A stretch of DNA of 64,000 nt, from NCBI GenBank assembly GCA_028819575.1, contig JAPPLB010000173.1:1-64000 (forward strand), written 5' to 3'. The DNA comes from Bryobacterales bacterium (GTDB lineage Bacteria; Acidobacteriota; Terriglobia; Bryobacterales; UBA6623). Position numbers and translations under genes: made by a program. How positions within the stretch are numbered: the stretch's first letter is position 1; each line of letters begins with the position of its first letter. Below the pieces are notes generated by a model that was not told the DNA's origin, searched no databases, and saw only the letters and a program-made list of their open reading frames with translations. This document shows positions 3,003-48,024 of the stretch, piece after piece.

Positions 3003-3046
3003 AGCAGAGAGGCACTGAATGCCCGCGAAACCGGCGCAGGCCCGCT

Positions 3047-3210
3047 TAGCAGCCCGTGGCAAAAGCCCCGCTGCATTCAAGCGGCGATGCATCCCGGCTG
3101 AACTGTGTTGCTCCTCGGTCGAATATGTCCAATATGCTCCCTCGTCGCGCCTTATCAGCCGGGTGCCTCGCCGCTCTCGGTGCTACGCGGGGTTTCACCA
3201 CGGACTGCTA
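3047..3210 (-). repeat. PAL-B2 inverted-repeat element (MITE-like)
   Basis: A ~164 bp element with imperfect inverted ends, AGCAGCCCGTGGCAAAAGCC on the left and the complement of AGCAGTCCGTGGTGAAACCC on the right, flanked on both sides by TA (3047-3048 and 3209-3210). A second, damaged copy lies at 47691-47828 in the opposite orientation, matching through the interior including GAGGAGCAACGCAGTTCAGC. It has no credible gene of its own. Its right end supplies the TAG stop codon of the downstream aldolase gene (3208-3210), and its left part holds an ATG in frame with the GT9 gene. The TA flanks suggest IS630/mariner-type mobilisation, which is inference. Confidence 0.8.
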
Positions 3211-8321: not shown

Positions 8322-9770
8322 ATGAGATTTTTAACAGCCCGTGGCAAAAGTCACGCAGGCGGCGTTACGCGCCCCGGGGCCAATGACGTAACGCGTGGCC
8401 ACTCCAGGAACGCGCCGCCGCGCTCTCTTCTCAACCGGCCGGAGGAGGCGCGTAACCCTTCGGGCGACGGACGTTTGCGCTCGTCGACTTTGTCGTTCGT
8501 CGGAGGAGATCACCCGGATCGCCATCCTCCTCACTCCGCGCCGAGCGACCACAGGAGCCCGCCGCGCCTTCCACGGGACTTTTGCCACGGGCTGTTAGCC
8601 TCGGCGCTCATCTTCGGCCTGCTGATTCCGTCCGCGCTCATCGCCCAGGACAACACCCTGACCCCGCAGGAGGTCGAGCAGGGTTGGATTCTGCTCTGGG
8701 ACGGCAAGACCGAGTACGGCTGGGAATGGCACGGCGACGCCCGCTGGAAGATCGAGGACGGCGTTCTCAAGTCCGACGGCGGCGGCTACGGTTGGCTGGG
8801 CACGACCAGCAGCTTCGGCGATTTCGAGCTCAGCCTCGAATTCCGAACGCCCGCCGACGGCAACAGCGGAGTGTTCCTGCGGTCGGCCCGCCTCGGCGCG
8901 CCTCACCAGACCGGCTATGAGCTGCAGATCTTCAATCGCCAGCCGCAGGGCTACAACACGGGCAGCCTCGTTTTCTACGTCAAGACGCAACCGGCGGAGT
9001 TCATCGGCGGGCAGTGGAACCGTTACCATGTCCGCGCCGTCGGCAGCCGCTTCGTCGTGCGGCTCAACGACCGCGAGGTGCTCGACGCCAGCGACTCGTC
9101 CCACGCGGCCGGCGTGATCGGCCTGCAATACAACGAAGACAAACCGATCGAGTTCCGCAACATCAAGCTGCGACCGCTCGGCCTCTCTCCGCTCTTCAAC
9201 GGACAGGACCTGAGCGGCTGGCAAAAGGTCGACCGTCCGAACCGCGACGACGTGCACGAGTGGTCGGTCCGCGACGGCATTCTGCATGTCGAGAAGGGCG
9301 CCGGACAGCTCGAAACGGTAAAGGAATTCAAGAACCTCGTGCTGCAGCTCGCGATCAAGACGAATCCGCCGTCAGCCGACCATCACCCCAACAGCGGCGT
9401 TTTCTTCCGCGGCGAGAAAGGGGTCTTCTGGAGCGGCTACGAGTCGCAAATCCGCAACGAGTTCCGAAACGGCGACCGCTCACAGCCCCACGACTTCGGC
9501 ACCGGCGGACTCTACTTCTATGTGCCGGCTCGCCGCGTCATCCCCAACGACGGAGAGTTCTTCCATAAGACCGTGGTCGCCTACGAACGTCACCTCGCCG
9601 TCTGGATCAACGGCACCCAGACCGCCGACTGGGAAGACCCGCGTCCCCCGGGCAACAACGCCCGGCGCCAGGCCCGTCTCGCGCCCGGAGTCATCAGCCT
9701 GCAAGCCCACGACCCGACCACGAACCTCGATTTCAAGGACATCCGCGCCGCCGAGTTGGACGAACGTTAG
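8322..9770 (+). CDS. Secreted double-DUF1080 (3-keto-disaccharide hydrolase-like) protein with repeat inside signal peptide
   Basis: Two DUF1080 domains follow each other (about residues 108-290 and 293-480), each with the GWxxxxG and NSGVF(F/L)R hallmarks of this concanavalin-like family, which includes 3-keto-glycoside hydrolases. The N-terminus is abnormal. MRFL is followed by about 88 residues encoded by the PAL-B1 repeat, then by ASALIFGLLIPSALIAQ. Removing the repeat, including one copy of the duplicated TTA, restores a standard signal peptide, MRFLASALIFGLLIPSALIA. The frame stays open through the repeat. Either the protein is made with an 88-residue insertion, or translation starts at an internal codon such as a TTG inside the repeat. 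A fragment of a similar gene's end lies at 10842-10905. Confidence 0.85.
   Translation: MRFLTARGKSHAGGVTRPGANDVTRGHSRNAPPRSLLNRPEEARNPSGDGRLRSSTLSFVGGDHPDRHPPHSAPSDHRSPPRLPRDFCHGLLASALIFGLLIPSALIAQDNTLTPQEVEQGWILLWDGKTEYGWEWHGDARWKIEDGVLKSDGGGYGWLGTTSSFGDFELSLEFRTPADGNSGVFLRSARLGAPHQTGYELQIFNRQPQGYNTGSLVFYVKTQPAEFIGGQWNRYHVRAVGSRFVVRLNDREVLDASDSSHAAGVIGLQYNEDKPIEFRNIKLRPLGLSPLFNGQDLSGWQKVDRPNRDDVHEWSVRDGILHVEKGAGQLETVKEFKNLVLQLAIKTNPPSADHHPNSGVFFRGEKGVFWSGYESQIRNEFRNGDRSQPHDFGTGGLYFYVPARRVIPNDGEFFHKTVVAYERHLAVWINGTQTADWEDPRPPGNNARRQARLAPGVISLQAHDPTTNLDFKDIRAAELDER
8332..8597 (+). mobile_element. PAL-B1 element inserted in frame in a signal-peptide coding region
   Basis: An element of about 264 bp with near-perfect 19-21 bp inverted ends (AACAGCCCGTGGCAAAAGTC and its complement), flanked by TTA/TA duplications at 8331-8333 and 8595-8597. 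It has no transposase. It shares ends and most of its interior with the copy at 47168-47490. In the frame of the host gene it has no stop codon and encodes a basic, Pro-rich peptide ending RDFCHGLL. The two TTA codons are exactly 88 codons apart, so the host frame is preserved. TA duplication suggests mobilisation by an IS630/Tc1-type transposase in trans; this is inference. Confidence 0.85.
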
Positions 9771-22838: not shown

Positions 22839-23043
22839 CTAACTTGCTTTTCTCACCACGCGGCGAGGTGAAGTGCGTGAGAGGGCCGTCAGGACGAGGC
22901 GCGAGCCGGGCGGAGGAAAAAGGCGCGTGCAGGCCTACTTGAACAGTACGTTGAGCACGGCAAGCAAGCGTCGCGAAGGAAAAGCGAAGTCCTGGCGGTC
23001 GTATCGTGTGCTTCGACCGTCGGGTGGAGAGAAAGGTAGGCTA
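22839..23043 (+). repeat. PAL-A palindromic repeat, variant centre, at a 3'-3' junction
   Basis: A 205 bp copy with slightly degenerate ends (AACTTGCTTTTCTCACCACG on the left). The usual GC-rich central hairpin is altered to contain GGGCGGAGGAAAAAGGCGCG, also seen in the 30050 copy. It fills the gap between the second LRR gene and the convergent DUF1552 gene. Its last bases, CTA at 23041-23043, form the TAG stop codon of the DUF1552 gene. Confidence 0.85.
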
Positions 23044-27052: not shown

Positions 27053-27255
27053 GAACGATTCTAGCTGAAACGCAGGCCAGGCAGGTATGCCGGGATGCCG
27101 CGGCCCGGAAGCAGGCTCATGCACGGAGAAGCCAGGACGACCGGCTCCGAGAGCGGTATGCGAGTTCGGCGGCCCCTCTCCGTGGTTCGTCCGTACTGGG
27201 AGCAGCCGCAAGAAACGGGTGGGAATACCAGCATGCTCCACTCTAATATGAGCCC

Positions 27256-28146
27256 ATGAGAGAGTTTGAGCGCATCGCGAAAATCATTCGATTCCTCGAC
27301 GAGCACCATAGCGAGCAGCCTGACCTGAAGACGTTGGCCGCGCAAGCCGGTCTCAGCCCCTTCCACTTCCACCGGCTCTTCTCGCATTGGGCCGGCATCA
27401 CGCCGAAAGACTTCCTGCAGTGCCTGACACTGTCGCACGCCAAGCGGTTGCTCGATGCGGGTGAGAGTGTTTTGGAGACCGCTCTCGATGCCGGACTCTC
27501 AGGTCCGGGCCGGTTGCACGACCTCTGCGTCAGCCTCGAAGCCGCCTCGCCAGGGGAGATCAAGGCTTCAGGAGCTGGATGGACAATCAAGGCGGGCTTT
27601 ACCGACAGCCCGTTCGGTGTGTGTCTGGTGGGCCGGAGCGCGCGCGGCATATGCCATCTTTCTTTCTTTGACCGCGCCGACCGCGCCCAGGGGGAAGCGG
27701 CTATCCACAAGGATTGGCCATTGGCTCGAGTACACTGGGACGACCCGACGGCCGGCCAACTCGCTGCCCAACTCTTTACCCGGCCCGGTAATGGTGTCTC
27801 ACTACGTGCCTTTGTTCGCGGGAAGGCCTTCCAGGTTCGCGTCTGGCGCGCCTTGCTCCGCGTTCCCCCGGGCGCGCTGGTCAGTTACGGCCGACTGGCG
27901 GAGGTGGTAGGCAGGCCCTCAGCCGCTCGCGCCGTCGGTACGGCGGTCAGCCGCAACCCTCTGGCGTATATCATCCCCTGTCACCGTGTGATCCATGCAA
28001 CGGGCGTGCTCGGCGACTACCGCTGGGGCGTCGAACGCAAGCGCGCGATCGTCGCATGGGAGACCGCTCCTTCCCTCAAAGGCGGTCCGCTTGCCCTCGC
28101 TTTGCGCGGCGGTGTCCCTGAACGCTCTTCATGGCCGCAGGCGTGA
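27256..28146 (+). CDS. ada: Ada-like DNA repair protein: AraC-type HTH plus O6-methylguanine methyltransferase
   Basis: 296 residues. Residues 1-100 form an AraC-family HTH (LKTLAAQAGLSPFHFHRLFS and FLQCLTLSHAKRLL). The rest is a methylguanine-DNA methyltransferase with the active-site PCHRVI and the helix-loop FQVRVWRALLRVPPGALVSY. It transfers O6-methyl groups from guanine to its own Cys. The N-terminal zinc/phosphotriester domain of E. coli Ada is missing, as in many bacterial two-domain forms. The C-terminal ~30 residues after the usual end are Gly/Ala/Leu-rich and may be non-conserved. It is divergent from rpiB, with a 203 bp gap. Confidence 0.9.
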   Translation: MREFERIAKIIRFLDEHHSEQPDLKTLAAQAGLSPFHFHRLFSHWAGITPKDFLQCLTLSHAKRLLDAGESVLETALDAGLSGPGRLHDLCVSLEAASPGEIKASGAGWTIKAGFTDSPFGVCLVGRSARGICHLSFFDRADRAQGEAAIHKDWPLARVHWDDPTAGQLAAQLFTRPGNGVSLRAFVRGKAFQVRVWRALLRVPPGALVSYGRLAEVVGRPSAARAVGTAVSRNPLAYIIPCHRVIHATGVLGDYRWGVERKRAIVAWETAPSLKGGPLALALRGGVPERSSWPQA

Positions 28147-28360
28147 GCCTGGGTCGGGCCCCGGAGGGACCCAAAGAGATTGCAAGCCCAGGACTTCAGC
28201 TACGGGTAAAACCCGAACAGCAAAGCATGTCCCGGCGGGGCGGTGCAAGCCGGGTCCTCTCAGCCATACATCACAGACTTGCTCTCAGGACCCCCGCGGC
28301 TCACTGGAAAGGCATATCCTCTCTTCGGCGGCCGTCCGGGACTGCTAGAATCGACCCGTC

Positions 28361-30025
28361 ATGCATCGCCCGCGATCTCTTCCAGCCATCCGACTGCTTC
28401 TTCTCGCGGCTGTCGGAATCACAGCCGCACTGCCCCAGTTCCGCGATCCCACGCTCCGTCCCGACTATTCGGCCCGCGTAACGATCGTCGTGCAACGCGA
28501 AGACACTGGTGAAATCGTCCCCGCACGCATCTATCTCTTTCGCAGCGGGCGGCTTTTCCGTCTGAGCCCGGTTGACAGCATGATCGCCTTCAAGCAGGAC
28601 AATTTCTACCGCAACCGTCCCTGGCGCCGCTCGAACAACCCCGATTCGCTCGAAATCATCGTCCGCGACATGTCCCACGTCATCCTCACGAAGGGCAGCG
28701 CCACCTTTGACGTCCCACCGTGGAAGGAATACCGCCTGGAAGTCCACCGCGGCCTGTTCTATGAGCCCGCGGTCATCGAATTCGAAGTCGGCCCCAACGA
28801 GGAAAAGACGATCGTCGCCAAAGTCCGGCCGATGGCCCCTCGGCTCCAGGAGCAGTGGATCAGCGCCGACCAACACGTGCACATCATGCGCGCCCGTGAG
28901 GATGACGACCTGCTGATGCGCTGGATGCAGGCTGAAGACCTGAACGTCCTCAACAATCTCGAGGGCCAGCGGCAGCAGCATTTCGGCGTGCAATACGCCT
29001 GGGGCCGCGCAGGCGAAGCGCGAATGCCGGGGCAATCGATCCGGTCCGGCCATGAGACCCGCAGCGATTACTTCGGGCACGTTCTCGTTCTGGGCGGGAA
29101 CCGCCTGATCCGGCCGCTGGGCATAGGTGACATGTATGGGAACACCCCCTATGCCTACCCCCATCCCTACATCACTTTCTTCGAAGGGCGCCGCGCCGGC
29201 GGCCTCGTCGGCTACGCCCACTTCCACGGATCCCGCAAGCATTCGCAGTTCATCATGAACATGGCGCTCAACACCCTCGACTTCGTGGAAGTCATGCAGT
29301 ACGCGCTCATCAAGACCCCGGGCTGGTACGAGTTGCTCAACGCCGGGTTCCGCGTCACAGGCACCGCCGGCTGCGATTGGCCCGACCCCACGGACCATTT
29401 CATCCCTTGGGAAAGGAACCTCCCGCTGCTGGGACCGGAGCGGACTCTGGTGAAAGCCGAACCGGGAGAATCGGCTTGGGAAACCTGGGCCGATGCCGTC
29501 AGGCGGGGCTCCACGGTCGTCTCCAACGGGCCGCTGCTCGACTTCACGGTGAATGGGCGCGGCATCGGAAGCATCATCGACTGGGACGGAGCTTCCGCCA
29601 CCGTCCGGGGCGAAGCCACCGCCGTCTTCCACCGGCCTCTGGATTCCCTCGAAATCGTCGCCAACGGCAAGGTCGTCGCCTCCCGCAAGGGTGACGGCGT
29701 CAAGACCGAGCTATCGCTGCCCTTCGAGTTGGAACTCACCGAAAGCACCTGGATCGCCGCCCGCACTGAAAGCCCCCGGCTCCGGGAAGACATCCGGATC
29801 TGGGCCCACGCCAGTCCCGTCTACGTGCTGAAGAATCGTCAGCCCCCTTACGTCAAGGCGGACCGTGACTCCGTCCTCGCCAAGTGGGAAACTGAGATCG
29901 AGTTCTACAAGACCGCCGGCTTCGTCTTCGAGCATGAAAGCCAAAGAGACGAGTTGATGGACCTCGCCGAAAGGACGCGGAAGATTCTCCAGGCTCCTCA
30001 ACCCCCCTGGCCGGCGAGCCGCTAA
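28361..30025 (+). CDS. CehA/McbA-family secreted metallohydrolase (PHP-like)
   Basis: 554 residues with an N-terminal signal-like segment (LLLLAAVGITAALPQ) and an early Ig-like region. The PHP-type part has metal-binding histidines in DQHVHIMRA, VGYAHFHGS and an Asp in GTAGCDWPD. CehA/McbA proteins hydrolyse esters or carbamates such as carbaryl in some soil bacteria; the natural substrate here is unknown. The C-terminus after residue 390 is beta-rich (STVVSNGPLLDFTVNG), as in the family. It ends 25 bp before a PAL-A repeat. Confidence 0.8.
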   Translation: MHRPRSLPAIRLLLLAAVGITAALPQFRDPTLRPDYSARVTIVVQREDTGEIVPARIYLFRSGRLFRLSPVDSMIAFKQDNFYRNRPWRRSNNPDSLEIIVRDMSHVILTKGSATFDVPPWKEYRLEVHRGLFYEPAVIEFEVGPNEEKTIVAKVRPMAPRLQEQWISADQHVHIMRAREDDDLLMRWMQAEDLNVLNNLEGQRQQHFGVQYAWGRAGEARMPGQSIRSGHETRSDYFGHVLVLGGNRLIRPLGIGDMYGNTPYAYPHPYITFFEGRRAGGLVGYAHFHGSRKHSQFIMNMALNTLDFVEVMQYALIKTPGWYELLNAGFRVTGTAGCDWPDPTDHFIPWERNLPLLGPERTLVKAEPGESAWETWADAVRRGSTVVSNGPLLDFTVNGRGIGSIIDWDGASATVRGEATAVFHRPLDSLEIVANGKVVASRKGDGVKTELSLPFELELTESTWIAARTESPRLREDIRIWAHASPVYVLKNRQPPYVKADRDSVLAKWETEIEFYKTAGFVFEHESQRDELMDLAERTRKILQAPQPPWPASR

Positions 30026-30049
30026 CCGGCTCCGGCATGACCCGAACGA

Positions 30050-30234
30050 GCCTGCATTTCTCGCCACGTTGCGAGGCGAAGTGGGTGAGAGGGCCGTCAG
30101 GACGAGGCGCGAGCCGGGCGGAGGAAAAAGGCGCGAGCAACATGGCCCTTGAGGCTTTTCACGAATCACGAGACACGAATCACGGCCCTTTTTCGCGTGC
30201 TTCGGCCGTCGGGTGGTGAGAAATGCAGGCTGGT
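30050..30234 (+). repeat. PAL-A palindromic repeat carrying the start of the next gene
   Basis: A 185 bp copy with clean ends (GCCTGCATTTCTCGCCACG and GGTGGTGAGAAATGCAGGCT). The centre is a variant containing GGGCGGAGGAAAAAGGCGCG and short TCACGAA-type repeats (30159-30185). Its right end contains both a Shine-Dalgarno-like GGTGAG and the ATG used by the nicotinate phosphoribosyltransferase gene. Confidence 0.88.
30212..30225 (+). promoter_or_regulatory. Ribosome binding site and start codon inside the PAL-A end
   Basis: GGTGGTGAG followed by AAATG places a GGTGAG motif (30215-30220) just upstream of the ATG at 30223. An in-frame TGA lies 6 bases before that ATG, and conserved NAPRT sequence ([12 protein letters not shown]) begins nine codons after it. 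This ATG is therefore the only plausible start, so the repeat end supplies the initiation signals. Confidence 0.7.
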
Positions 30235-31671
30235 AGCAGCTCTCTCGGTCTTCTCACCGACCTGTACCAGATCACGATGGCGCAGGGCTACTGGAAGACC
30301 GCTAAAGACGAGCATGAGGCGGTCTTCCATCTGTTCTTTCGCAGGAACCCCTTCGGCGGCGCCTTCTCCGTCGCCTGTGGCCTCGCCCCGGCCATTGAAT
30401 CCCTGCGAGGTTTCGGCTTCGACGAGTCGGACCGCTCCTATCTGTCTACGTTGCGGGGAAACGACGGAGAGCCGCTTTTCGAACCCGCTTTCCTCGACTA
30501 CCTGGCAAACCTCGAATTCGCTTGCGACATCGATGCCCTTTCCGAAGGCGTGGTTGCCTTTCCCCAGGAGCCGTTGCTGCGTGTACGAGGGCCCCTGCTG
30601 CAATGTCAGCTTCTCGAGACGCCGCTGCTGACGATCATCAACTTCCAGACCCTCATCGCCACAAAAGCCGCCCGCATCTGCCTCGCGGCGCAAGGAGAGC
30701 CGGTCCTGGAATTCGGTCTCCGGCGGGCCCAGGGCAGGGACGGCGGATTGGCGGCGAGCCGCGCGGCCTACGTCGGCGGCTGTGCCGGCACCTCCAACGT
30801 ACTGGCGGGCAAGGTCTACGGCATTCCCGTCAAGGGCACCCACGCCCACAGTTGGATCATGTCGTTCGACAGCGAGGAAGAGTCGTTCCAGGCCTATGCC
30901 CAAGTCATGCCCAACAACTGCATCTTCCTCGTCGACACGTACGACACGATTGAGGGCGTCCGGCACGCGGTCGCCGCCGGCCGCCGATTGAGAGAGGCGG
31001 GCCACGAGATGATCGGCATTCGGCTCGACTCCGGTGACCTCGCTGATCTGAGCATCGAGGCGCGGCGCTTACTTGACGATGCGGGCTTCAACGAGGCCGC
31101 GATCGTCGGTTCGAGCGATCTGGACGAATACAAGATCGTCGAGATCAAGAAGAGAGGCGGACAGATCGCCGTATGGGGCGTCGGCACGCGTCTCGCCACC
31201 GCCTACGACGATCCAGCCCTCACCGGTGTCTACAAGATCTCAGCCCTCCGCGAGCCGGGCGGGGAATGGAAGCACTGCATCAAGCTGTCCGACGATCCGG
31301 ACAAGCAATCCATGCCGGGCATCCAACAGGTCCGCCGCTTCTCCAGGAACGGGCGCTTCCAGTCGGATATCATCTACGACGAAGCTGCGCCCCCCGAGGC
31401 CGCATGGCAAGCTCGCGTGTTCGGCGACCCCGATACAAAGATTGCCCTTCCAGCGGACTGCGCTTCGGAGGATCTGCTCCAACCCGTATTCCGTTCCGGC
31501 GCGCTGAAGATGGAATTGCCCCCGATCCACGACATGCGCAGGCGCTGCCTGCATCAACTCGACTCGCTTGGCCCCGAACTCAAGCAGCCGGCCTCTGCCG
31601 TCCGCTATCCCGTCGGTATCGAGGACGGCCTTTTCAAGCGAAAACAGAAGCTTGCCGCCGCAAAGCGCTAA
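30223..31671 (+). CDS. pncB: Nicotinate phosphoribosyltransferase
   Basis: 482 residues that make nicotinate mononucleotide from nicotinate and PRPP in NAD salvage. Conserved parts include [32 protein letters not shown], the active-site [19 protein letters not shown] and [12 protein letters not shown]. The first nine residues (MQAGSSSLG) derive from the PAL-A repeat end and have no family counterpart. A fatty-acid operon begins 73 bp downstream on the same strand. Confidence 0.92.
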
Positions 31672-31744
31672 CTCCACTCGACGGAACTTTCCTCGGCACC
31701 CGCTACAATCGGGATGTCGATCTTCGGGAGGCAGCAGTCAGAGC

Positions 31745-32923
31745 ATGCAGGAACCGGTTGTCGTTCACGCCTTGCGAACCGCCGTGGGAAAGGCGCCCCG
31801 TGGCTCGCTCAATACCACGCGCCCCGACGACATGGCCGCCGCCGTGATCGGTGAGATCGTCGAACGCACTCCGGAGCTGCCCAAGGACGAGATCGAGGAC
31901 GTCATCCTTGGCTGCGCGATGCCCGAGGCCGAGCAGGGCATGAACATCGCCCGAATCGCCGGCCAGCGCGCCGGACTGCCCGACTCCGTACCAGGCATGA
32001 CGATCAACCGCTTCTGCAGTTCCGGCCTGCAGTCGATCGCGCTCGCGGCCGATCGCATCCGCGGCGGAGGGGCGAAAGCCATCATCGCCGGCGGCGCTGA
32101 ATCCATGAGCCTCATTCCCGGCGCCGGACACAAGCTGGCCCCCAACCCCTGGGTGATGGAGCACATGCCACAGATCTACATCAACATGGGTCTCACGGCC
32201 GAGAAAGTCGTCAGCAAGTACGGTATCCCGCGTGAAGCCCAGGATGAGTTCGCGCTCGGCAGCCATCGCAAGGCCGCCGCAGCCCAACAAGGAGGCAAGT
32301 TCGACGAAGAGATCGTACCGCTCGACGTCAAGGTCACCGCGGCCGGCAATGGCGGCGTCCACACGCGCGAAGCCGTGTTCGCCCGTGACGAAGGAATCCG
32401 TTTCGACACCAGCCTCGAAAAGCTCGCTACGCTCAAGCCGGTCTTCCGGGTGGGCGGTTCGATCACCGCCGGCAACTCCTCGCAGACGAGCGATGGCGCG
32501 GCGGCGGCCCTGGTCATGTCCGCCGATCGGGCGCAAGAGTTGGGACTCGATCCGCTTGCCCGCTTCCTCGGCTTCGCCACCGCTGGCGTCCCGCCCGAGA
32601 TCATGGGCATCGGTCCCGTAGCCGCCATTCCCAAAGCTCTCAAGCTCGCCGGGCTCGAGCTCGAACAGATCGACCTTATCGAGTTGAACGAGGCCTTCGC
32701 CGGGCAAGCCTTGGCCGTCATCAAGCTCGCCGGACTCGATCCCGATCGCGTCAACGTCAACGGCGGCGCCGTCGCTCTCGGCCACCCGCTCGGCGCGACC
32801 GGCGCAAAGCTCACCGCGACGCTTCTCCAGGAGATGCATCGCCGCAAATCGCGCTACGGAATGGTCACGATGTGTGTCGGCGGAGGACAGGGGGCCGCCG
32901 GCATCTTTGAGAGAATCGAATAG
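31745..32923 (+). CDS. fadA: Acetyl-CoA acyltransferase (thiolase)
   Basis: A 392-residue thiolase. The acylated Cys lies in TINRFCSSGLQSIA (about residue 88), with the C-terminal NEAFAGQ, the His in LGHPLGATGAK and the second Cys in TMCVGGGQGA. It carries out the last, thiolytic step of beta-oxidation, or condensation in reverse. The downstream acyl-CoA dehydrogenase gene 24 bp away supports a role in beta-oxidation. The ATG at 31745 starts MQEPVVVHALRTAVG, the canonical N-terminus. Confidence 0.92.
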   Translation: MQEPVVVHALRTAVGKAPRGSLNTTRPDDMAAAVIGEIVERTPELPKDEIEDVILGCAMPEAEQGMNIARIAGQRAGLPDSVPGMTINRFCSSGLQSIALAADRIRGGGAKAIIAGGAESMSLIPGAGHKLAPNPWVMEHMPQIYINMGLTAEKVVSKYGIPREAQDEFALGSHRKAAAAQQGGKFDEEIVPLDVKVTAAGNGGVHTREAVFARDEGIRFDTSLEKLATLKPVFRVGGSITAGNSSQTSDGAAAALVMSADRAQELGLDPLARFLGFATAGVPPEIMGIGPVAAIPKALKLAGLELEQIDLIELNEAFAGQALAVIKLAGLDPDRVNVNGGAVALGHPLGATGAKLTATLLQEMHRRKSRYGMVTMCVGGGQGAAGIFERIE

Positions 32924-32947
32924 GCGCTGATTCCCCGCCTCCCTTTT

Positions 32948-34735
32948 ATGGCCACTACCGAGTCCATTCCCATAACGGGCGCAGCCCCTGTCGGCGGCGG
33001 TTTTCTTCTCGAAGACTTTCCTGCCGGGACCGCCTTCATCTCGGAGGACTTCACCGAGGAGCAGCGCCAGATCGGATCCACGGCCGACCGTTTCGTGACC
33101 GAAGAAGTTTTGTCTCGCATCGATCAATTCGAGGCGCAGGAGCCCGGTCTCTGCCGCAAGCTCATGAAGCAGGCCGGCGACCTCGGCCTGCTGGCGGTCG
33201 GAGTTCCCGAGCCATACGGCGGGCTCGAGTTGGACATGACCAGCGGCCAGGTCGTTGCCGAGCGTATCGGACGCTACGCCTCGTTCTCGACCACCTACGG
33301 CGCGCACACGCACATCGGTACGCTCCCGCTGGTTTTCTTCGGAACCGAAGAGCAGAAGCGGCGCTATCTCCCGCGAATCAGCAGCGGAGAATGGATCGCG
33401 GCCTACTGCCTCAGTGAACCCCACGCCGGCAGCGACGCGTTGGCCTCTCGCACGCGAGCCGAGCTGTCCGCCGACGGCAGGCATTACATCCTCAACGGCG
33501 AGAAGATGTGGGTCTCCAACGGCGGCTGGGCGGATTTCTACACCGTCTTCGCCAAAGTCGACGGTGAGAAGTTCACCGCCTTCCTCATCGAACGAGGCTG
33601 GGAAGGCGTCAAGCCTGGCGCGGAAGAACGGAAGATGGGCATCAAGGGGAGTTCGACGACGCCCCTGGTGCTTGACGAGGTCGCCGTCCCGGTCGAGAAC
33701 GTGCTCGGAGAAATCGGCCGCGGCCATCTCATTGCCTTCAACATCCTCAACATCGGCCGCCTGGAATTGGGCGCGGCTTGCATCGGCGGCGGCAAGGACG
33801 TGATCGCCGCCACGATCGAATACGCCAAACAGCGTCAGGCGTTCGGAAGACCCATCTCCGATTTCGGCTTGATCCGCCACAAGCTCGCGCAAATGGCCGT
33901 CTATCTCTTTGCCACCGAGTCGATCGTCTACCGCACCTCGGGCATGATCGACGCCCGCTCGGCGGGCCTCGACTGGACCGGCGAGCATTCGGCGCGCGCG
34001 CACCTGAAGGCCATCGAGGAATACGCTGTCGAGTGCTCGATCGTGAAAGTGTACTCCAGCGAATCGCTCGATTACCTGGTCGATGAAGGCGTGCAAGTCC
34101 ACGGCGGTTATGGATTTCATCAGGACTACAGCATCGAGCGCGCTTATCGTGATGCGCGCATCAACCGCATCTACGAGGGCACCAACGAGATCAACCGTCT
34201 GCTCATCACCGGCATGCTCCTCAAGCGCGCCGCGCAGAAACGCCTTGACCTTGGGACAGCCGCAAGAAACGCCATGAACGAGGCGGTAGGCGACGCTTTC
34301 GGCAACGTCGATTGGGCCGGCTCGCCCGAGCGGGAGTTGCTGCGGCGCGCCAAGCAAGCGACGCACATCTGCGCCGGCGCCGCCTGGCAACGCTTCGGAG
34401 ACCAGCTCGAGCAGCAGCAGGAAGTCGTCGCCGCGGTCAGCGGCATGGTCATCGGGATCTACGCCGCCGAATCAGCCCTGCTGCGCGCCGAGAAGCTTCA
34501 AGCGCGAGGCCGCGGCGAGAACGCGCGTGACATGGCGCGGCTGCTGGTCTTCGACCTTCTCACGGACGTCCGGAGTCTCGGATCGACGACCCTGGCCGCA
34601 TCCCTCGACGGCGAGGCTCTCGTTCACACCGAGCGCCTGCTCCGCCGGCTCACCGATTGCCCCTCTCTCGACACCATCGCTCTGCGCCGCCGCATCGCCG
34701 AGCGCCTGATCGCCGCCGAAAGGTTTGTGGTTTGA
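32948..34735 (+). CDS. Acyl-CoA dehydrogenase, long form
   Basis: A 595-residue FAD enzyme making the trans-2-enoyl-CoA double bond in beta-oxidation. The core shows YCLSEPHAGSDA, NGEKMWVSNGGWAD, the C-terminal catalytic region QVHGGYGFHQDYSIERAYRD and RINRIYEGTNEINRL. A ~180-residue C-terminal extension beyond the usual 380-residue core is typical of the long bacterial form. Its TGA overlaps a TTG start of the next gene, so the pair is likely coupled. Confidence 0.9.
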   Translation: MATTESIPITGAAPVGGGFLLEDFPAGTAFISEDFTEEQRQIGSTADRFVTEEVLSRIDQFEAQEPGLCRKLMKQAGDLGLLAVGVPEPYGGLELDMTSGQVVAERIGRYASFSTTYGAHTHIGTLPLVFFGTEEQKRRYLPRISSGEWIAAYCLSEPHAGSDALASRTRAELSADGRHYILNGEKMWVSNGGWADFYTVFAKVDGEKFTAFLIERGWEGVKPGAEERKMGIKGSSTTPLVLDEVAVPVENVLGEIGRGHLIAFNILNIGRLELGAACIGGGKDVIAATIEYAKQRQAFGRPISDFGLIRHKLAQMAVYLFATESIVYRTSGMIDARSAGLDWTGEHSARAHLKAIEEYAVECSIVKVYSSESLDYLVDEGVQVHGGYGFHQDYSIERAYRDARINRIYEGTNEINRLLITGMLLKRAAQKRLDLGTAARNAMNEAVGDAFGNVDWAGSPERELLRRAKQATHICAGAAWQRFGDQLEQQQEVVAAVSGMVIGIYAAESALLRAEKLQARGRGENARDMARLLVFDLLTDVRSLGSTTLAASLDGEALVHTERLLRRLTDCPSLDTIALRRRIAERLIAAERFVV

Positions 34736-36468
34736 CCCTGCACCGCCGCGGCTTCGTGCGGTTGTGCATCGGTGCCGGGTCCTGTCTGTTCTGGCCTCGC
34801 CACGCCGCCGCGGCAAGCGGCGAGACGCGATATCAGAAGCTGCTCGTCCGATATCGCAGCGATCCGGACCGCATCGCACGCGCGCTCCCTCCCGCCCTGA
34901 GTGCGGACCGGAGTGGCGAGGTCTGGTTCGAATGCGTGCGGATCATTCCCGAATCCGCAGGGCCGCTATTCGAAGGTCCTTATCTGGCCGTGGGCATCCG
35001 CTTGGCCGTCGAGCACGGCTCCGGACCGGGTTGGTTCCAGCCTATCCGCTGGACAACTCACGAATGGCTTCGGCTCTGGGAGCGCGAACACCTCGGCTTC
35101 AACACGAAACGTGCCGAAATCGATCTCACCGTAGAAGGCGCTTCCGTCAAGGCGTCGCTCGATCGCAAGGGCTTTCGACTCCTCCGCGTCGCCACACTTC
35201 GCACCGACCGCAGCGTTGCATCGAGCGGCCCTTCCGCCGGCCGCGACCTCTTCTGCTACCGCTACGGCCTCGGACCTGATTGGCAAAAGGCAACCGCAGG
35301 TCGATCGACCGGCATCTGGCGTATTCCGGCAACGGCCGCTCCGTCCGATTCCCTCATTCGCGCCTGTGACATTGAAAGCGCGGCGCTCCAACTGCCGCAC
35401 GCGTCGCCGCTCGACCCCATCGCGGAGTTTCCTGCTCTTGAGATCCTTACGGCAATTTTTGAGGAAGGTACTGCCGAACACGTTCCCCCAAGCAATGCCC
35501 GCAAGCCGCGGTTCGTCAGCGGCATCGACGCTGCCGAGTTCCAATCGTGGAACCTCATGCATTACGACCGCCCGCACACCTCCCGGAGGCCCTGGCAGCC
35601 CGAAGACTGGCCTGACAAGGCGACTGCTTTCCGCCTCTCCGGCGCAGAGATCGAACGCTACCGATCACGCAGGGAAGTGCGGCTAGGGCCCGTCGACATG
35701 CTCGACGCCCGGCTGACGACGACCGGAGAGATCAAGAACGATATCCTCCCGCCGCCCTGCCGAGCAGGCTTCCGGCCTGCCCTCCGGATGCTCGTCCTGC
35801 GCGTCGAGGAGAGCGATCTCTCTCCCGTGCCGTTCAGCGAGGCCTGGCTGTTCGCTTTCGCCGTGGTCGAGCGTGAGCGCGGCTGGTACGCCCTGTCGCA
35901 TATCGTCAGTGAAGGCGGTAACCTCACCTTCGGACGCGAGGTCCTCGGCTATCCTTCCAAGCTCGGGACACCCGACTTGAGCATGAGCTTTCGTGATTTC
36001 TCCGCGCATTGCGTCCGGCGTGGCCGCGAATTGCTGAACGCGCAGGGCAGACTCCGCGGCATCCCGACAGGTACCTCGCTATCGAAAATTCCTGTCTTGG
36101 GACTACGGCGGAGTGCTGCCCATCCGTCGGCTTCGACCAGTGGTGAGATCGTCGCGCAGCCTTGGTACTTCCAGGGACGTCATTTCTCCGTCGACCGGTC
36201 GACGGTCCGGATCTCGTTCCCGGAACCCGCCGACGAGGGGTCTGCCTTTGACCCGTGGTTCGAGTTCAACCCGATCCGTGTCGCCTCTGTCTCGGTGATG
36301 ACCAACGGCACGATGCAGAGAACTCCAGGCCGTGTCGTCGCTCCCGTTGCGAACCTTCAGCCGTATTATCGTGAGCGTTGCGACGGCGCGATTCCCGGGA
36401 TCGACTCGCCGGTGAACCCTGCCGTTCCGACGTTCGGAGTGGTTCGCGCGCCCGTCACGCGCTCCTGA
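34732..36468 (+). CDS. Tandem acetoacetate-decarboxylase-like protein with Tat-like N-terminus
   Basis: About 578 residues if begun at the TTG at 34732, which overlaps the acyl-CoA dehydrogenase TGA. The N-terminus HRRGFVRLCIGAGS resembles a twin-arginine signal. Two similar halves follow, the second clearly ADC-like (LLPPPCRAG-type region, ALSHIVSEGGNLTFGREVLG). The ADC catalytic dilysine GxPKK is here GYPSK (about residues 406-410), so the Schiff-base Lys position is Ser. The first half has REHLGFNTKRAEID at the matching place. Decarboxylase activity is therefore doubtful; binding or a different reaction is possible. Position within a fatty-acid operon suggests a beta-keto acid or acyl substrate. 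Confidence 0.7.
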   Translation: MTLHRRGFVRLCIGAGSCLFWPRHAAAASGETRYQKLLVRYRSDPDRIARALPPALSADRSGEVWFECVRIIPESAGPLFEGPYLAVGIRLAVEHGSGPGWFQPIRWTTHEWLRLWEREHLGFNTKRAEIDLTVEGASVKASLDRKGFRLLRVATLRTDRSVASSGPSAGRDLFCYRYGLGPDWQKATAGRSTGIWRIPATAAPSDSLIRACDIESAALQLPHASPLDPIAEFPALEILTAIFEEGTAEHVPPSNARKPRFVSGIDAAEFQSWNLMHYDRPHTSRRPWQPEDWPDKATAFRLSGAEIERYRSRREVRLGPVDMLDARLTTTGEIKNDILPPPCRAGFRPALRMLVLRVEESDLSPVPFSEAWLFAFAVVERERGWYALSHIVSEGGNLTFGREVLGYPSKLGTPDLSMSFRDFSAHCVRRGRELLNAQGRLRGIPTGTSLSKIPVLGLRRSAAHPSASTSGEIVAQPWYFQGRHFSVDRSTVRISFPEPADEGSAFDPWFEFNPIRVASVSVMTNGTMQRTPGRVVAPVANLQPYYRERCDGAIPGIDSPVNPAVPTFGVVRAPVTRS

Positions 36469-36483
36469 CCGCGCCCTGCTTTC

Positions 36484-38040
36484 ATGGCTGACACCGCTTC
36501 CAACGACGCTTCGATTCGCAGCATCCCCGACCTGCTGGCGGCAAGAGCAACCGGCAGCGGCCAGCGCAGCGTTTTCCTCTCACCCGGCCGGCCGGACCTT
36601 TCCTACGAGGCCCTGCTGCAACAAGTGAACGATACGGTCGCGGCCCTCAACGCTCACGGTATTCGACGCGACGACCGCGTTGTCGTCGTTCTGCCCAACG
36701 GACCCGAAATGGCGGTCACTTTCGTCGCCGTTGCCTCCGGCGCCACTGCCGCGCCCTTGAACCCGGCTTACAAAACCGACGAACTGAACTTCTATTTCTC
36801 TGACCTCGATGCTAAAGCGCTCATCGTCGATCCGGCCCTCGACTCCCCCGCTGCCGAGGTAGCCCAGTCGCTCGGTATCCCCGTCTTTTTCCTCGAGGCC
36901 GGTGCTGATCGACCCGCCGGCGCGTTCACGCTCGCATGCCGCTCCGGAGATCGGCCTCCGGCAACGGACCCGGTCTTCGCCGAATCCGGTGACATCGCTC
37001 TGGTTCTGCACACCTCGGGCACGACCTCGCGGCCCAAGATCGTTCCGTTGAGCCACGCCAACGTTTGTGCGTCTGCGTTCAACATCACTGATACGCTCGC
37101 CCTCACCTCCGAAGACCGATGCCTGAACATCATGCCGTTGTTTCACATCCACGGCCTGATGGGAGCGGTGCTGTCATCGCTTGCCGCCGGAGCGGAACTC
37201 GTTGCCACGCCCGGCTTCGATGCCATGAGGTTCTTCCGTTGGCTCGGCGACTTCCGCCCCAGCTGGTACACCGCCGTGCCCACCATGCATCAGGCGATCC
37301 TCGCCCGCGCCGGACGAAACGAGGACATCGTGCGGCTCGCGAAGCTGCGATTGATCCGTTCGTCGTCCTCCGCGCTGCCGCCGCAGGTCATGAAGACCCT
37401 GGAAGACACGTTCCGCGCCCCCGTCATCGAGAGCTACGGCATGACCGAGGCGGCGCATCAGATGGCCAGCAATCCTCTTCCCCCCGCCCCTCGCAAGCCC
37501 GGTTCCGTTGGCCTGCCCGCAGGACCCGAGATCGCCGTCATGAACGACGCGGGCGACCTTCTCGCTGCGGGTGAGACCGCCGAAGTGGTGATTCGCGGCG
37601 CGAACGTCACCGCAGGATATGACAGGAATCCCGATGCGAACAAGGACGCCTACAGCGGCGGCTGGTTCCGCACCGGCGACCAGGGATACTTTGACGCCGA
37701 CGGCTACCTCTTCATCACGGGCCGCTTGAAGGAGATCATCAATTGCGGCGGCGAGAAAGTTTCGCCGCGCGAGGTCGATGAAGTTCTGCTCGACCACCCC
37801 GCCGTTCGACAAGCCGTCACCTTCGCGATGCCCCACCGCATGCTCGGCGAGGATGTCGCGGCGGCCATTGTTCTGGCCGAAAACAAGACCGCCGACGCCC
37901 GGGAAATTCGCGATTTTGCCGCCGAACGTCTCGCCCCGTTCAAAGTCCCCGGCCGAGTCGTCTTTCTTGACGAAATCCCGAAAGGCCCCACCGGCAAGCT
38001 CCAACGCATCGGCCTGGCCCAAAAACTCGGCCTCGCATAG
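36484..38040 (+). CDS. AMP-dependent acyl-CoA synthetase/ligase
   Basis: 518 residues of the adenylate-forming family. It has the P-loop LHTSGTTSRPKIVPLSH, then YGMTEAAHQMASNPLPP, KPGSVGLPAG, WFRTGDQGYFD and the C-terminal catalytic Lys in GPTGKLQR. The TEAAHQMASNPLPP/KPGSVG pair resembles oxalate-CoA ligases of the PCS60/AAE3 type more than standard long-chain ligases, so oxalate or another short acid is possible. The operon context instead favours a fatty acyl substrate. It starts 15 bp after the ADC-like gene. Confidence 0.88.
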   Translation: MADTASNDASIRSIPDLLAARATGSGQRSVFLSPGRPDLSYEALLQQVNDTVAALNAHGIRRDDRVVVVLPNGPEMAVTFVAVASGATAAPLNPAYKTDELNFYFSDLDAKALIVDPALDSPAAEVAQSLGIPVFFLEAGADRPAGAFTLACRSGDRPPATDPVFAESGDIALVLHTSGTTSRPKIVPLSHANVCASAFNITDTLALTSEDRCLNIMPLFHIHGLMGAVLSSLAAGAELVATPGFDAMRFFRWLGDFRPSWYTAVPTMHQAILARAGRNEDIVRLAKLRLIRSSSSALPPQVMKTLEDTFRAPVIESYGMTEAAHQMASNPLPPAPRKPGSVGLPAGPEIAVMNDAGDLLAAGETAEVVIRGANVTAGYDRNPDANKDAYSGGWFRTGDQGYFDADGYLFITGRLKEIINCGGEKVSPREVDEVLLDHPAVRQAVTFAMPHRMLGEDVAAAIVLAENKTADAREIRDFAAERLAPFKVPGRVVFLDEIPKGPTGKLQRIGLAQKLGLA

Positions 38041-38101
38041 AGGGATGTACCATAAGGGACGCATCAACTCCCAAACGCCCTGAACGGTCCCTCCCGCAAA
38101 C

Positions 38102-38878: not shown

Positions 38879-39119
38879 GCCTGCATTTCTCCCCTCGTAT
38901 CGAGGCGAAGTGGGTGAGAGGGCCGTCAGGACGAGGCGCGCGCCGCTGGGGGCAAGCGACATGGCCTATCACGAGTCTCGGCCTCCATGCAAGCCGCCCT
39001 GGATCAACGGCCGTACCGCCTGCCCAGGTTTTTGGGTCACGAATCACGAGTCACGAAACACGAATCACGGCCTTTTTATCGCGTGCTTCGGCCGTCAGGT
39101 GGGGAGATGTGCAGGCTAG
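38879..39119 (+). repeat. PAL-A palindromic repeat with inserted short tandem repeats, at a 3'-3' junction
   Basis: A longer copy (241 bp) whose normal second half is expanded. The insertion contains TCACGAATCACGAGTCACGA-type short repeats at 39036-39071. Both ends are recognisable (GCCTGCATTTCTCCCCTCG and GAGATGTGCAGGCTAG). It lies between two convergent genes, and its CTAG end gives the stop codon of the 1607-residue protein. Confidence 0.85.
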
Positions 39120-45565: not shown

Positions 45566-47554
45566 CTATCGACCCTCTCCCAACTCCCGCAGATTGGTGC
45601 GGATTTGCTGTGCGAAGGGGTCCTGCGGCCCCAGGGTGCTTTCTATGATGGTGAGAGCCCTCCGAAGGAGTTGCCTGGCCGTGGAGTAGTCGTTTCTTTG
45701 AAGCGCGGCGTAAGCAAGGCTGTACACCGACTCGGCGACATCAGGGTGATGTTCGCCGAACACGCCTTCTCGGATCCGCAATGAGCGGCGGAACAGCGGC
45801 TCGGCGCCGGACAAGTCTCCCCGCATCAGCAGGACCGTGCCCAGGTTGTGGAGGCTCATGGCCACGTCGGGATGGTCGGCGGGCAGCGTCTTTTCTCGGG
45901 TTGCCAGCGCGCGGCGGCCGAAACGCTCGGATTCATCGAGACGCCCGAGTTCGCGCAGAGTGACTCCCAGATCGTCCTGCACTGCGGCCGTGGCGGGGTG
46001 CTCCGCTCCCAGCGTCCCTTCGAGCAAGGCGGCGGCTTCGCGTTGTTGAGGTTCAGCGGCTCCGAAGTCGCCCTGGGCGGCCGCCAGCAAGCCGAGGCGG
46101 TTCAAGGTGAGGGCGTAGCGGGGATGCTCGCGGCCGAGAGTTCGTTGCAAAAGAGAAGCCGCTTGGTTGTACTGCATCCGGGCAGCCGCCGTGTCGCCTC
46201 GGGCCTCATCCAACCGGGCCAACAACACCAACGTATCGGCAAGGGCGGCGTCATCCTTCGTTGCGGCCTTCTCTTGGAGCGAGAGCGCTCGGCGGGCGAA
46301 GGTCAACGCAGCGTTGAGATCGCCCTTTTCGAGAAGCAAGGAGCCAAGGTTCGCCGATGTCGTTGCGAGCCGGGGATTCTCGGAACCAAGATGCTTCTCG
46401 AACGTCTCCAGTGCGCGCCGCAGATGCCTTTCGGCTTCTTCGTATTTCCCTTGCTCCCGCAGAACGCCCGCGAGATTGTTCAGCGTCGAGGCGACCTCAG
46501 GGTGTTCTGAACCAAAGGATTTCTCGTATCCGGCCAGGGCTTCGCGATAAAGTTTCTCCGATTCGTCCGGTCTGCCCCGCGATTCCAGCAGGAAGCCGAG
46601 ATCATGGGCGCTGGCGGCCCGGTTGGGATCGTCGGGGGTCAGCGTTTTGCGCCGGATGGTCAGGGCTCGCCGATAGTGAGGCTCGGCCGCGGCAAGATCG
46701 CTCTGGGCTTCGAGAGCGGCCGCGAGCTTCTTGAGCAAAGCGGCGGCAACCGGCGTGGCTGCTTCCCCGTGGGTCTTGATTGCCCGCTCGTACAGCTTGA
46801 CCGCTTCCCGTGTATCGCCGCTCGCAACCAGCAGATCCGCTAGACGGACAAGGGTTTCCTGTATCGAAGCATCGGTAGCGTCGAATGACTTTTCGCGAAT
46901 CGCGAGGGCTTCGCGCAGCAGTGGCTCCGCCTGCTGATAGTCCTGACGGGATTCGAGAACGCCGGCTAGCGCCAGCAAGCTGTCAGCCACCTTGGGGTGA
47001 TCCGAACCCAGTTCTTTTCGCCGCTCGGCGAGCGCTTGGCGGTAGAGCGGTTCGAACAGGCGGCTGTCGCGCGGGTCTTGCTCGAACAGCGGTTCGGTTT
47101 CGGCCGCAGGTTCATTCGGCGCCGCTGCTAGCGGCGCCAGGCAGACGAGCGCGATCACCACGATGCCTAGCAGTCCGTGGCAGAAGTCCCGTGGAAGGCG
47201 CGGCGGGCTCCTGCGGTCGCTCGGTGCGGAGTGAGGAGGATGGTGATCCGGGTGATCTCCTCCGACGAACGACAAAGCCGACGGCCTTGGGCGGTCGACT
47301 CCGTGGTCAAGCTGGGCAGCAAGCTCAGAACCGCCGTTGGAACAAAAAACGTCCGTCGCCCAAAGGGGTACGCACCGCTTCGCCCGGTTGCGCGGAGAGA
47401 GCGGCGCTGTGTTCCTGGGGCGGCCACACGTTACGCAATCGGCCCCGGGGCGCGTAACGCCGCCTGCGTGACTTTTGCCACGGGCTGCTATGCGCAACGG
47501 CGTCAATTCGCTGCTGTGAGCTATGCCTGCGCGCGCCGATTCCTCGTATGCCAC
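45566..47554 (-). CDS. Secreted TPR-repeat protein with repeat inside signal peptide
   Basis: Up to 662 residues, mostly kinesin-light-chain-like TPRs of 42 residues (A..Y..ALAIREK type). The N-terminus is disrupted by the PAL-B1 repeat. LRIA is followed by ~107 repeat-encoded residues ending DFCHGLL, then GIVVIALVCLAPLAAAP. Without the repeat, a TTG start at 47495-47497 would give MRIGIVVIALVCLAPLAAAP, a good signal peptide. The frame is open throughout, and a GTG at 47554 could add 19 residues. It may be made with a 107-residue insertion or start inside the repeat. The TPRs probably serve protein binding, perhaps with the co-encoded HupE-like protein. Confidence 0.82.
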   Translation of the reverse strand: MAYEESARAGIAHSSELTPLRIAARGKSHAGGVTRPGADCVTCGRPRNTAPLSPRNRAKRCVPLWATDVFCSNGGSELAAQLDHGVDRPRPSALSFVGGDHPDHHPPHSAPSDRRSPPRLPRDFCHGLLGIVVIALVCLAPLAAAPNEPAAETEPLFEQDPRDSRLFEPLYRQALAERRKELGSDHPKVADSLLALAGVLESRQDYQQAEPLLREALAIREKSFDATDASIQETLVRLADLLVASGDTREAVKLYERAIKTHGEAATPVAAALLKKLAAALEAQSDLAAAEPHYRRALTIRRKTLTPDDPNRAASAHDLGFLLESRGRPDESEKLYREALAGYEKSFGSEHPEVASTLNNLAGVLREQGKYEEAERHLRRALETFEKHLGSENPRLATTSANLGSLLLEKGDLNAALTFARRALSLQEKAATKDDAALADTLVLLARLDEARGDTAAARMQYNQAASLLQRTLGREHPRYALTLNRLGLLAAAQGDFGAAEPQQREAAALLEGTLGAEHPATAAVQDDLGVTLRELGRLDESERFGRRALATREKTLPADHPDVAMSLHNLGTVLLMRGDLSGAEPLFRRSLRIREGVFGEHHPDVAESVYSLAYAALQRNDYSTARQLLRRALTIIESTLGPQDPFAQQIRTNLRELGEGR
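47168..47490 (-). mobile_element. PAL-B1 element inserted in frame in a signal-peptide coding region
   Basis: A 321 bp insert between TA dinucleotides at 47168-47169 and 47489-47490, with ends matching the 8332 copy. Its coding-strand interior matches that copy in ARGKSHAGGVTRPGA and in SFVGGDHPD plus HPPHSAPSD and SPPRLPRDFCHGLL, with a longer variable middle. 321 is divisible by 3 and the frame has no stop codon. It is oriented the same way relative to the host gene as the other copy and is read in the same frame. Confidence 0.85.
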
Positions 47555-47566
47555 TGCCCTTCAAGT

Positions 47567-47690
47567 CTAGCCTGCATTTCTACCTGTCTGACGGGCGAAG
47601 CACGCAATACGGACCGTCATGGCTTCGTGGCGCTTGCTCTCCATGCTCAATGCAGGATCAGGTACACCTCCACGCGCCGTGCGGCCTGCA
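47567..47690 (-). repeat. PAL-A repeat, truncated copy nested with PAL-B2
   Basis: It starts CTAGCCTGCATTTCT (47567-47581) and follows the reverse-orientation PAL-A sequence through TGCTCAATGC to about 47690. There it is cut by the PAL-B2 copy, whose TA begins at 47691. This suggests PAL-B2 inserted into PAL-A. Confidence 0.75.
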
Positions 47691-47828
47691 TAGCACCGTG
47701 AACAGCGCTGCGCCCGGCTGACAAGGCGTGACGAGAGAGCATATTGGACCTGTTCGACCGAGGAGCAACGCAGTTCAGCCGGGATGCATCGCCGCTTGAA
47801 TGCGGCGGGGCTTTTGCCACGGGCTGCA
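47691..47828 (+). repeat. PAL-B2 inverted-repeat element, damaged copy
   Basis: It matches the 3047-3210 element in reverse. The interior around GAGAGCATATTGGACCTGTTC and the intact right end GCTTTTGCCACGGGCTGC are clear. The left end (TAGCACCGTGAACAGC) is degenerate. The following stretch to 48024 shows no gene and is the upstream region of the pentapeptide-repeat gene. Confidence 0.78.
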
Positions 47829-48024
47829 AGGCGGCAGCAGAGGTTCGATGCAACCGTCGAGTGTTTCCACTCGGACCCATAGAATGTTCGGCTGGTGGAA
47901 CGAATCGTGATTTTGCTATCCGTTGTGCATCGTGTTGCCATAAAATTGGCTTGGTTACAGAACGATGTCGCTTGCGGCATGGCCGGGGGCGGATGGCGTT
48001 ACCTTCCTTGAAGGGATTTACGGA

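Follow-up and report, generated by a model that had tools for sequence, protein, structure and literature searches.

The closest described systems are repeats and mobile elements of other bacteria, cited here from parts of each source. In Acinetobacter the terminal repeat of MITEAba12 reads outward and gives the residues MQQS to three neighbouring genes, and each of the six frames of its consensus contains two stops or more (PMC6382973). In the large BOX elements of pneumococcus a start codon in boxC reads out of the repeat; the BOX ORFs match hypothetical CDSs only and are without good Shine-Dalgarno sequences (PMC3049150). Rickettsia palindromic elements are about 150 bp long, lie in coding genes in a tolerated frame, and are translated within the host protein (PMC10969869). 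IS711 of Brucella has the target YTAR and duplicates TA only (PMC2266754). IS1272 (PMC5678879), as far as the part of its description consulted goes, was considered and is unrelated.

How does the Bryobacterales element described here compare? Like MITEAba12, it has a MITE end that supplies the first residues of a gene, and within the parts of these sources consulted MITEAba12 is the one precedent for this. The end sequence and the host are different, and the sections of the MITEAba12 account used here mention neither a Shine-Dalgarno motif in the end nor a reading frame through the element, and draw no comparison with empty sites. With the large BOX elements our element shares being a small repeat with an outward-reading start codon. 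It resembles the Rickettsia elements, to judge from the part of their description used, in being palindromic and lying inside genes, but of the two only the Bryobacterales element contributes a stop codon together with a fresh start codon. It has the same YTAR target as IS711, and in addition its flanks match each other at positions 1 and 4. In the mainly open-access literature searched for repeats that donate start codons, we found no end that combines a stop, a Shine-Dalgarno-like motif and a start with documented empty sites. What is new here is that the native ATG persists at 30037 and opens a frame through the element, closed by a TGA that leaves three bases to the new ATG.

The element behind the start codon of pncB

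The DNA analysed, referred to as the window, is a stretch of 64,000 nucleotides (positions 1-64,000, forward, of contig JAPPLB010000173.1) from Bryobacterales bacterium GCA_028819575.1, whose own genome is called G000 below. Two relatives served for comparison: G002, a congeneric genome with about 95% identical DNA (record JAPOOG010000097.1, Bryobacterales bacterium isolate APA_bin_29), and G001, of the same genus (record JAQBUE010000096.1). The features of the locus are collected in Table 1.

Table 1. Features of the pncB locus in the window
Feature	Position	Strand	Basis
cehA/McbA family metallohydrolase gene, upstream of pncB	28361..30025	+	NF038032, 167 bits vs cut-off 80
Native pncB start codon	30037-30039	+	pncB of G002 begins at the homologous ATG
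60-codon frame opened by the native ATG, spanning the element and closed by TGA 30217-30219	30037..30219	+	
Left flank CGAG, read as a degraded YTAR target copy	30047..30050	+	YTAR consensus, flank positions 1 and 4 matching
MITE-like element, forward orientation, 179 nt	30051..30229	+	homologous site in G002 and G001 is without the element
Left terminal inverted repeat CCTGCATTTCTCGCCAC	30051..30067	+	
Shine-Dalgarno-like GGTGGTGA; last three bases are the native-frame stop codon	30212..30219	+	duplex energy -11.8 kcal/mol
Right terminal inverted repeat GTGGTGAGAAATGCAGG	30213..30229	+	
Element-supplied ATG, proposed pncB start codon	30223..30225	+	no other standard start codon lies in frame ahead of the conserved domain
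pncB gene for a nicotinate phosphoribosyltransferase of 482 aa, with MQAGSSSL replacing MTRNSSSL at the N-terminus	30223..31671	+	
Right flank CTGG, interpreted as a target copy that has degraded, then TAGC	30230..30233	+	

Between the stop codon of the CehA/McbA gene and the native pncB ATG lie 11 bases. The comparison of orthologous starts that the preliminary description of this locus had proposed is informative: in both G002 and G001 cehA, in homologous DNA, is followed by pncB with its native ATG and without the element. In G002 pncB begins ATGACCCGAAACAGCAGCTCTC; the window has the same ATGACCCGAA, then the element, then the remaining gene. Written in codons, G002 has GGC-ATG-ACC-CGA-AAC-AGC-AGC-TCT-CTC and the window GGC-ATG-ACC-CGA-ACGAG-[element]-CTGGT-AGC-AGC-TCT-CTC, which places the entry of the element in codon 4. 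The G002 alignment is collinear on either side of the element (window 27089-30046 and 30235-38074). Starts were inspected in 17 of 57 pncB matches from the own genome and from relatives of the family and order; among these 17 loci the element stands at the start in the own genome only.

The sequence GGTGGTGAGAAATGCAGGC, which occupies 30212-30230, reads GGTGGTGA-GAA-ATG-CAGGC. The preliminary description had claimed that the repeat end carries a Shine-Dalgarno-like motif and an ATG with suitable spacing, and the gap between GGTGGTGA and the ATG is indeed 3 nt. Its further points, that an in-frame stop lies just upstream, that the conserved enzyme begins nine codons in, and that there is no alternative start, hold as well: the stop is the TGA at 30217, the TIGR01513 profile (534 bits vs cut-off 297.4) matches residues 9-468 to positions 1-450 of 452, and the next standard in-frame start is the ATG at codon 19 (30277), within a conserved stretch. 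What that reading overlooked is the surviving native ATG at 30037 and the frame across the element, both of which bear on the route to the new start.

We read the locus as the insertion of a MITE-like element at nucleotide 11 of pncB, where the site resembles YTAR. In the sequence the gene is cut after codon 3, and the outward end of the element carries GGTGGTGA-GAA-ATG in frame with what remains of pncB, giving MQAGSSSL for MTRNSSSL. About three element-derived residues remain in the product. To judge from these sequences, translation of the enzyme very probably now starts at the element ATG. Neither a sigma-70 promoter nor an intrinsic terminator pattern was found in 29900-30400.

A MITE-like repeat family

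The ends of the family are 17-bp inverted sequences (CCTGCATTTCTCACCAC / GTGGTGAGAAATGCAGG) that bound an element of about 177 bp, the commonest length (30 of 88 elements). The window copy gave 47 scored matches in the own genome, 1.35 Mb of whose contigs yielded 95 paired ends. The end core is matched exactly 533 times in the own genome, 190 times in G002 and not at all in G001, with none for the reversed control; in 28 other relatives searched there was a single match, in one of them. When up to three mismatches are allowed, the same 1.35 Mb holds 271 ends, of which 209 have an ATG at the same place, as expected from the earlier statement that the ATG and motif exist in other copies.

Flanks follow YTAR on both sides of the elements. 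Identical 4-bp flanks are commoner than expected (20 of 95, vs 10.7 by re-pairing; p 0.0002), and flank positions 1 and 4 match beyond chance (p 0.03 and 0.0003, respectively; n=88). A copy at 22843-23040 of the window is flanked by CTAA on both sides, and G002 has one CTAA there, a clean empty site. The flanks of the pncB copy (CGAG / CTGG) are degraded, with three extra bases after. Judged by its sequence features, the family is a MITE-like, non-autonomous mobile element: it has terminal inverted repeats, high copy number, target-site duplication, and occupied and empty sites, and a unit of the typical 177 bp has no room for an internal transposase.

The IS701 group has the YTAR target too. 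The DDE_5 (PF13546) and IS701 (NF033540) profiles had no match in the own genome, whose assembly is broken by repeats; membership in the IS701 group was rejected for want of an IS701-type transposase in that genome. No transposase was recognised by eye among the longest frames between inverted end pairs 0.6-3.5 kb apart. Membership in the Rickettsia palindromic elements was rejected on the right-end stop codon in pncB and in a phosphofructokinase gene (PFK), and on the frame change in a dehydrogenase E1 gene (both described below).

Some insertions are older than the split between G000 and G002, since the copy at window 38880-39115 is common to both genomes at the same place; its right ends differ (GATGTGCAGG vs GATGTTTCAC). 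Partial copies stand in close series in G000 at C33:4658-5194 and C180:57-360, as if from tandem or nested insertions. The window also contains a second inverted-repeat family at 8332-8598 with ends TAACAGCCCGTGGCAAAAGTC / GACTTTTGCCACGGGCTGTTA, which G002 is without at 8332/8598; related pieces lie at 3042-3191, 47167-47283, 47378-47490 and 47685-47834.

Other genes that probably start at an element end

Candidate donors were picked by eye from long ORFs that start at the 209 ATG-bearing ends. Four ends look like convincing start donors, and most donate none. Besides pncB, the set includes the dehydrogenase E1 gene (E1, C9:14881), PFK (C51:25497) and a PSCyt/PSD1 gene (C82:13197). For E1, the G002 empty site is ATGGCCAACGTTACG, vs ATGGCCATCGTTAA and TTAAGAAAACC around 177 bp in the own genome, with identical TTAA target copies on both sides of the element. 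For PFK, G002 has ATGGCTAGGAAGCGC vs ATGGCTGA and CTAGGAAGCGC on either side of the element. In the PSCyt/PSD1 gene the element ATG is the apparent start in two species, G000 and G002; the upstream junctions differ between them, and the gene has no known empty site. Compared with L228:9913-13197, G002 and G001 give very many PSCyt/PSD1-type paralogous matches (138 and 95, respectively). The suggestion that the repeat acts as a portable translation start thus gains support, at the level of sequence, from E1 and PFK with empty sites and from PSCyt/PSD1 without one.

The insertion point is nucleotide 11 in pncB, nucleotide 11 in E1 and nucleotide 5 in PFK; in E1 and PFK these positions equal 2 modulo 3, the phase that brings the ATG of the end in frame. 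All four donors use the right end, whereas ends at large are divided into 92 right, 105 left and 8 unclear (of 205), so this use of one end is only weakly unlikely by chance, and four donors are a small number. Beyond the ends there was no excess of the donor frame, either in open coding-like frames (18, 33 and 25 in frames 0, 1 and 2; 76 of 266 ends) or in sense-like ones only (17, 9 and 13; 39 of 96 rows).

Other candidates were set aside. At C28:37880, G002 has the same inner start without an element. C44:30108, C44:32672, C129:8857 and C122:88871 likely have a native start further in (by eye). At C33:45 the gene encodes formamidopyrimidine glycosylase, in which the N-terminal proline is catalytic, and a native GTG-Pro start is present. 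C19:179272, C121:2908 and C136:39750 have low coding scores. The ORF from the end ATG at C45:26042 has no Pfam match and stays a possible candidate.

Possible routes to the new start

Pairing of the 20 nt upstream of the new pncB ATG with the 16S tail is predicted at -11.8 kcal/mol, a value equalled by 0.75% of 3480 random positions; the tail letters used in the computation are our assumption. The tail core GGNTGGATCACCTCC is present in 10 of 21 genomes searched and was not found in G000-G003, where the G000 16S match spans model positions 9-800 only. The native pncB start pairs at -1.7 kcal/mol vs -11.8 at the new one; the native PFK start in G002, at -9.3, is not weak. In the E1 donor end (C9:14870-14883, L170), GGGGGGTGA vs the family GGGTGGTGA, the pairing is the strongest among the donors (-15.3 kcal/mol), and the motif of this end possibly improved after insertion.

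The native ATG is retained in pncB, E1 and PFK, and an uninterrupted frame runs from each up to the new start, at distances of 186 nt, 184 nt and 180 nt, respectively. The first stop in the native frame, relative to the new ATG, is at -6 in pncB and PFK and at +8 in E1, where it overlaps the new start region and is not ahead of the ATG. That the native frame spans the element in these three genes follows from the make-up of the element itself: the donor phase reaches its first stop no more than 10 nt from the ATG in 52 of 94 oriented elements, is closed earlier in 16 and stays open in 26, and in the other two phases 68 and 93 of the 94 have an earlier stop.

Folding of the full transcript is predicted to place the motif and the ATG inside the stem in which the two ends pair (-105 kcal/mol). 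The predicted probability that the pncB ATG is unpaired is 0.001 with both ends and 0.65 without the left end, and across three donors it ranges from 0.001 to 0.04. For PFK the ATG is predicted to stay largely paired when the left end is removed as well (unpaired 0.017), so the hairpin argument is weaker for this gene.

Because the predicted hairpin would otherwise bury the start, we favour termination and reinitiation, a route to which we give about an even chance. Ribosomes would mostly reach the new start from the native ATG by reading the 60-codon frame through the element; translation of this frame would open the hairpin, and the ribosomes would halt at the TGA, whose bases close the Shine-Dalgarno-like motif, and begin again at the ATG that follows three bases later. 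Direct initiation at the element ATG through the strong motif, with the frame from the native ATG incidental, is a serious possibility that we hold somewhat short of probable. It would account for the strong duplex and for the use by all four donors of the right end, which pairs better with the 16S tail than the left (-11.8 vs -7.4 kcal/mol); the predicted stem around the motif and ATG speaks against it, as does the retention of the native ATG and an uninterrupted frame in pncB, E1 and PFK.

Could the insertion instead have killed or nearly silenced pncB, the open frame being a leftover? The element separates the gene from its native start, the new start lies in a strong predicted hairpin, and a recent insertion could not yet show decay. 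Still, pncB has a single match in G000 and an intact 482-codon frame, and its dN/dS between G000 and G002 is 0.28 (0.033/0.118), as under purifying selection. The G000 branch has 10 amino-acid changes in pncB, 9 in E1 and 11 in PFK, with no clear excess over the G002 branch (7, 10 and 10), and the element ATG stays in frame in three dissimilar genes. The intact frame, single copy, dN/dS and similar branch changes, all read from sequence, speak against decay of pncB, and we consider silencing improbable.

Readthrough of the TGA at 30217 would give PncB a 62-residue element-encoded N-terminal extension, with peptides from LHFSPRCEAKWVR joined to the enzyme as in the Rickettsia palindromic elements. 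This fits pncB and PFK, whose distances (186 nt and 180 nt) are divisible by three; against it, the 184 nt of E1 would lose the frame, orthologs have no such extension, and the TGA belongs to the end sequence of most copies, so that readthrough is very improbable. A start at codon 19, where an ATG exists, or at some non-standard codon beyond the repeat is hardly credible, for the codon-19 start drops the LTDLYQ-type stretch found in orthologs (17 loci) and is without an upstream frame or end motif.

Returning to termination and reinitiation, the right end may be a stop-and-restart module by which some insertions just inside genes survived: with an open frame from the host ATG, a stop at GGTGGTGA and a restart three bases on, such insertions would be self-repaired. 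That the right end is selected as a module that repairs insertions behind start codons, and so aids the spread of the element in a compact genome, is a doubtful extension. pncB is a vitamin-B3 salvage gene of an uncultured host, and the sequences before and after insertion indicate that a mobile repeat has taken over, in frame, as the translation start of housekeeping genes. Repeats deserve attention when start codons are annotated in such genomes. If the restart route is true, it accounts for the ability of an element whose ends number several hundred per genome to land where needed genes start and leave them alive.
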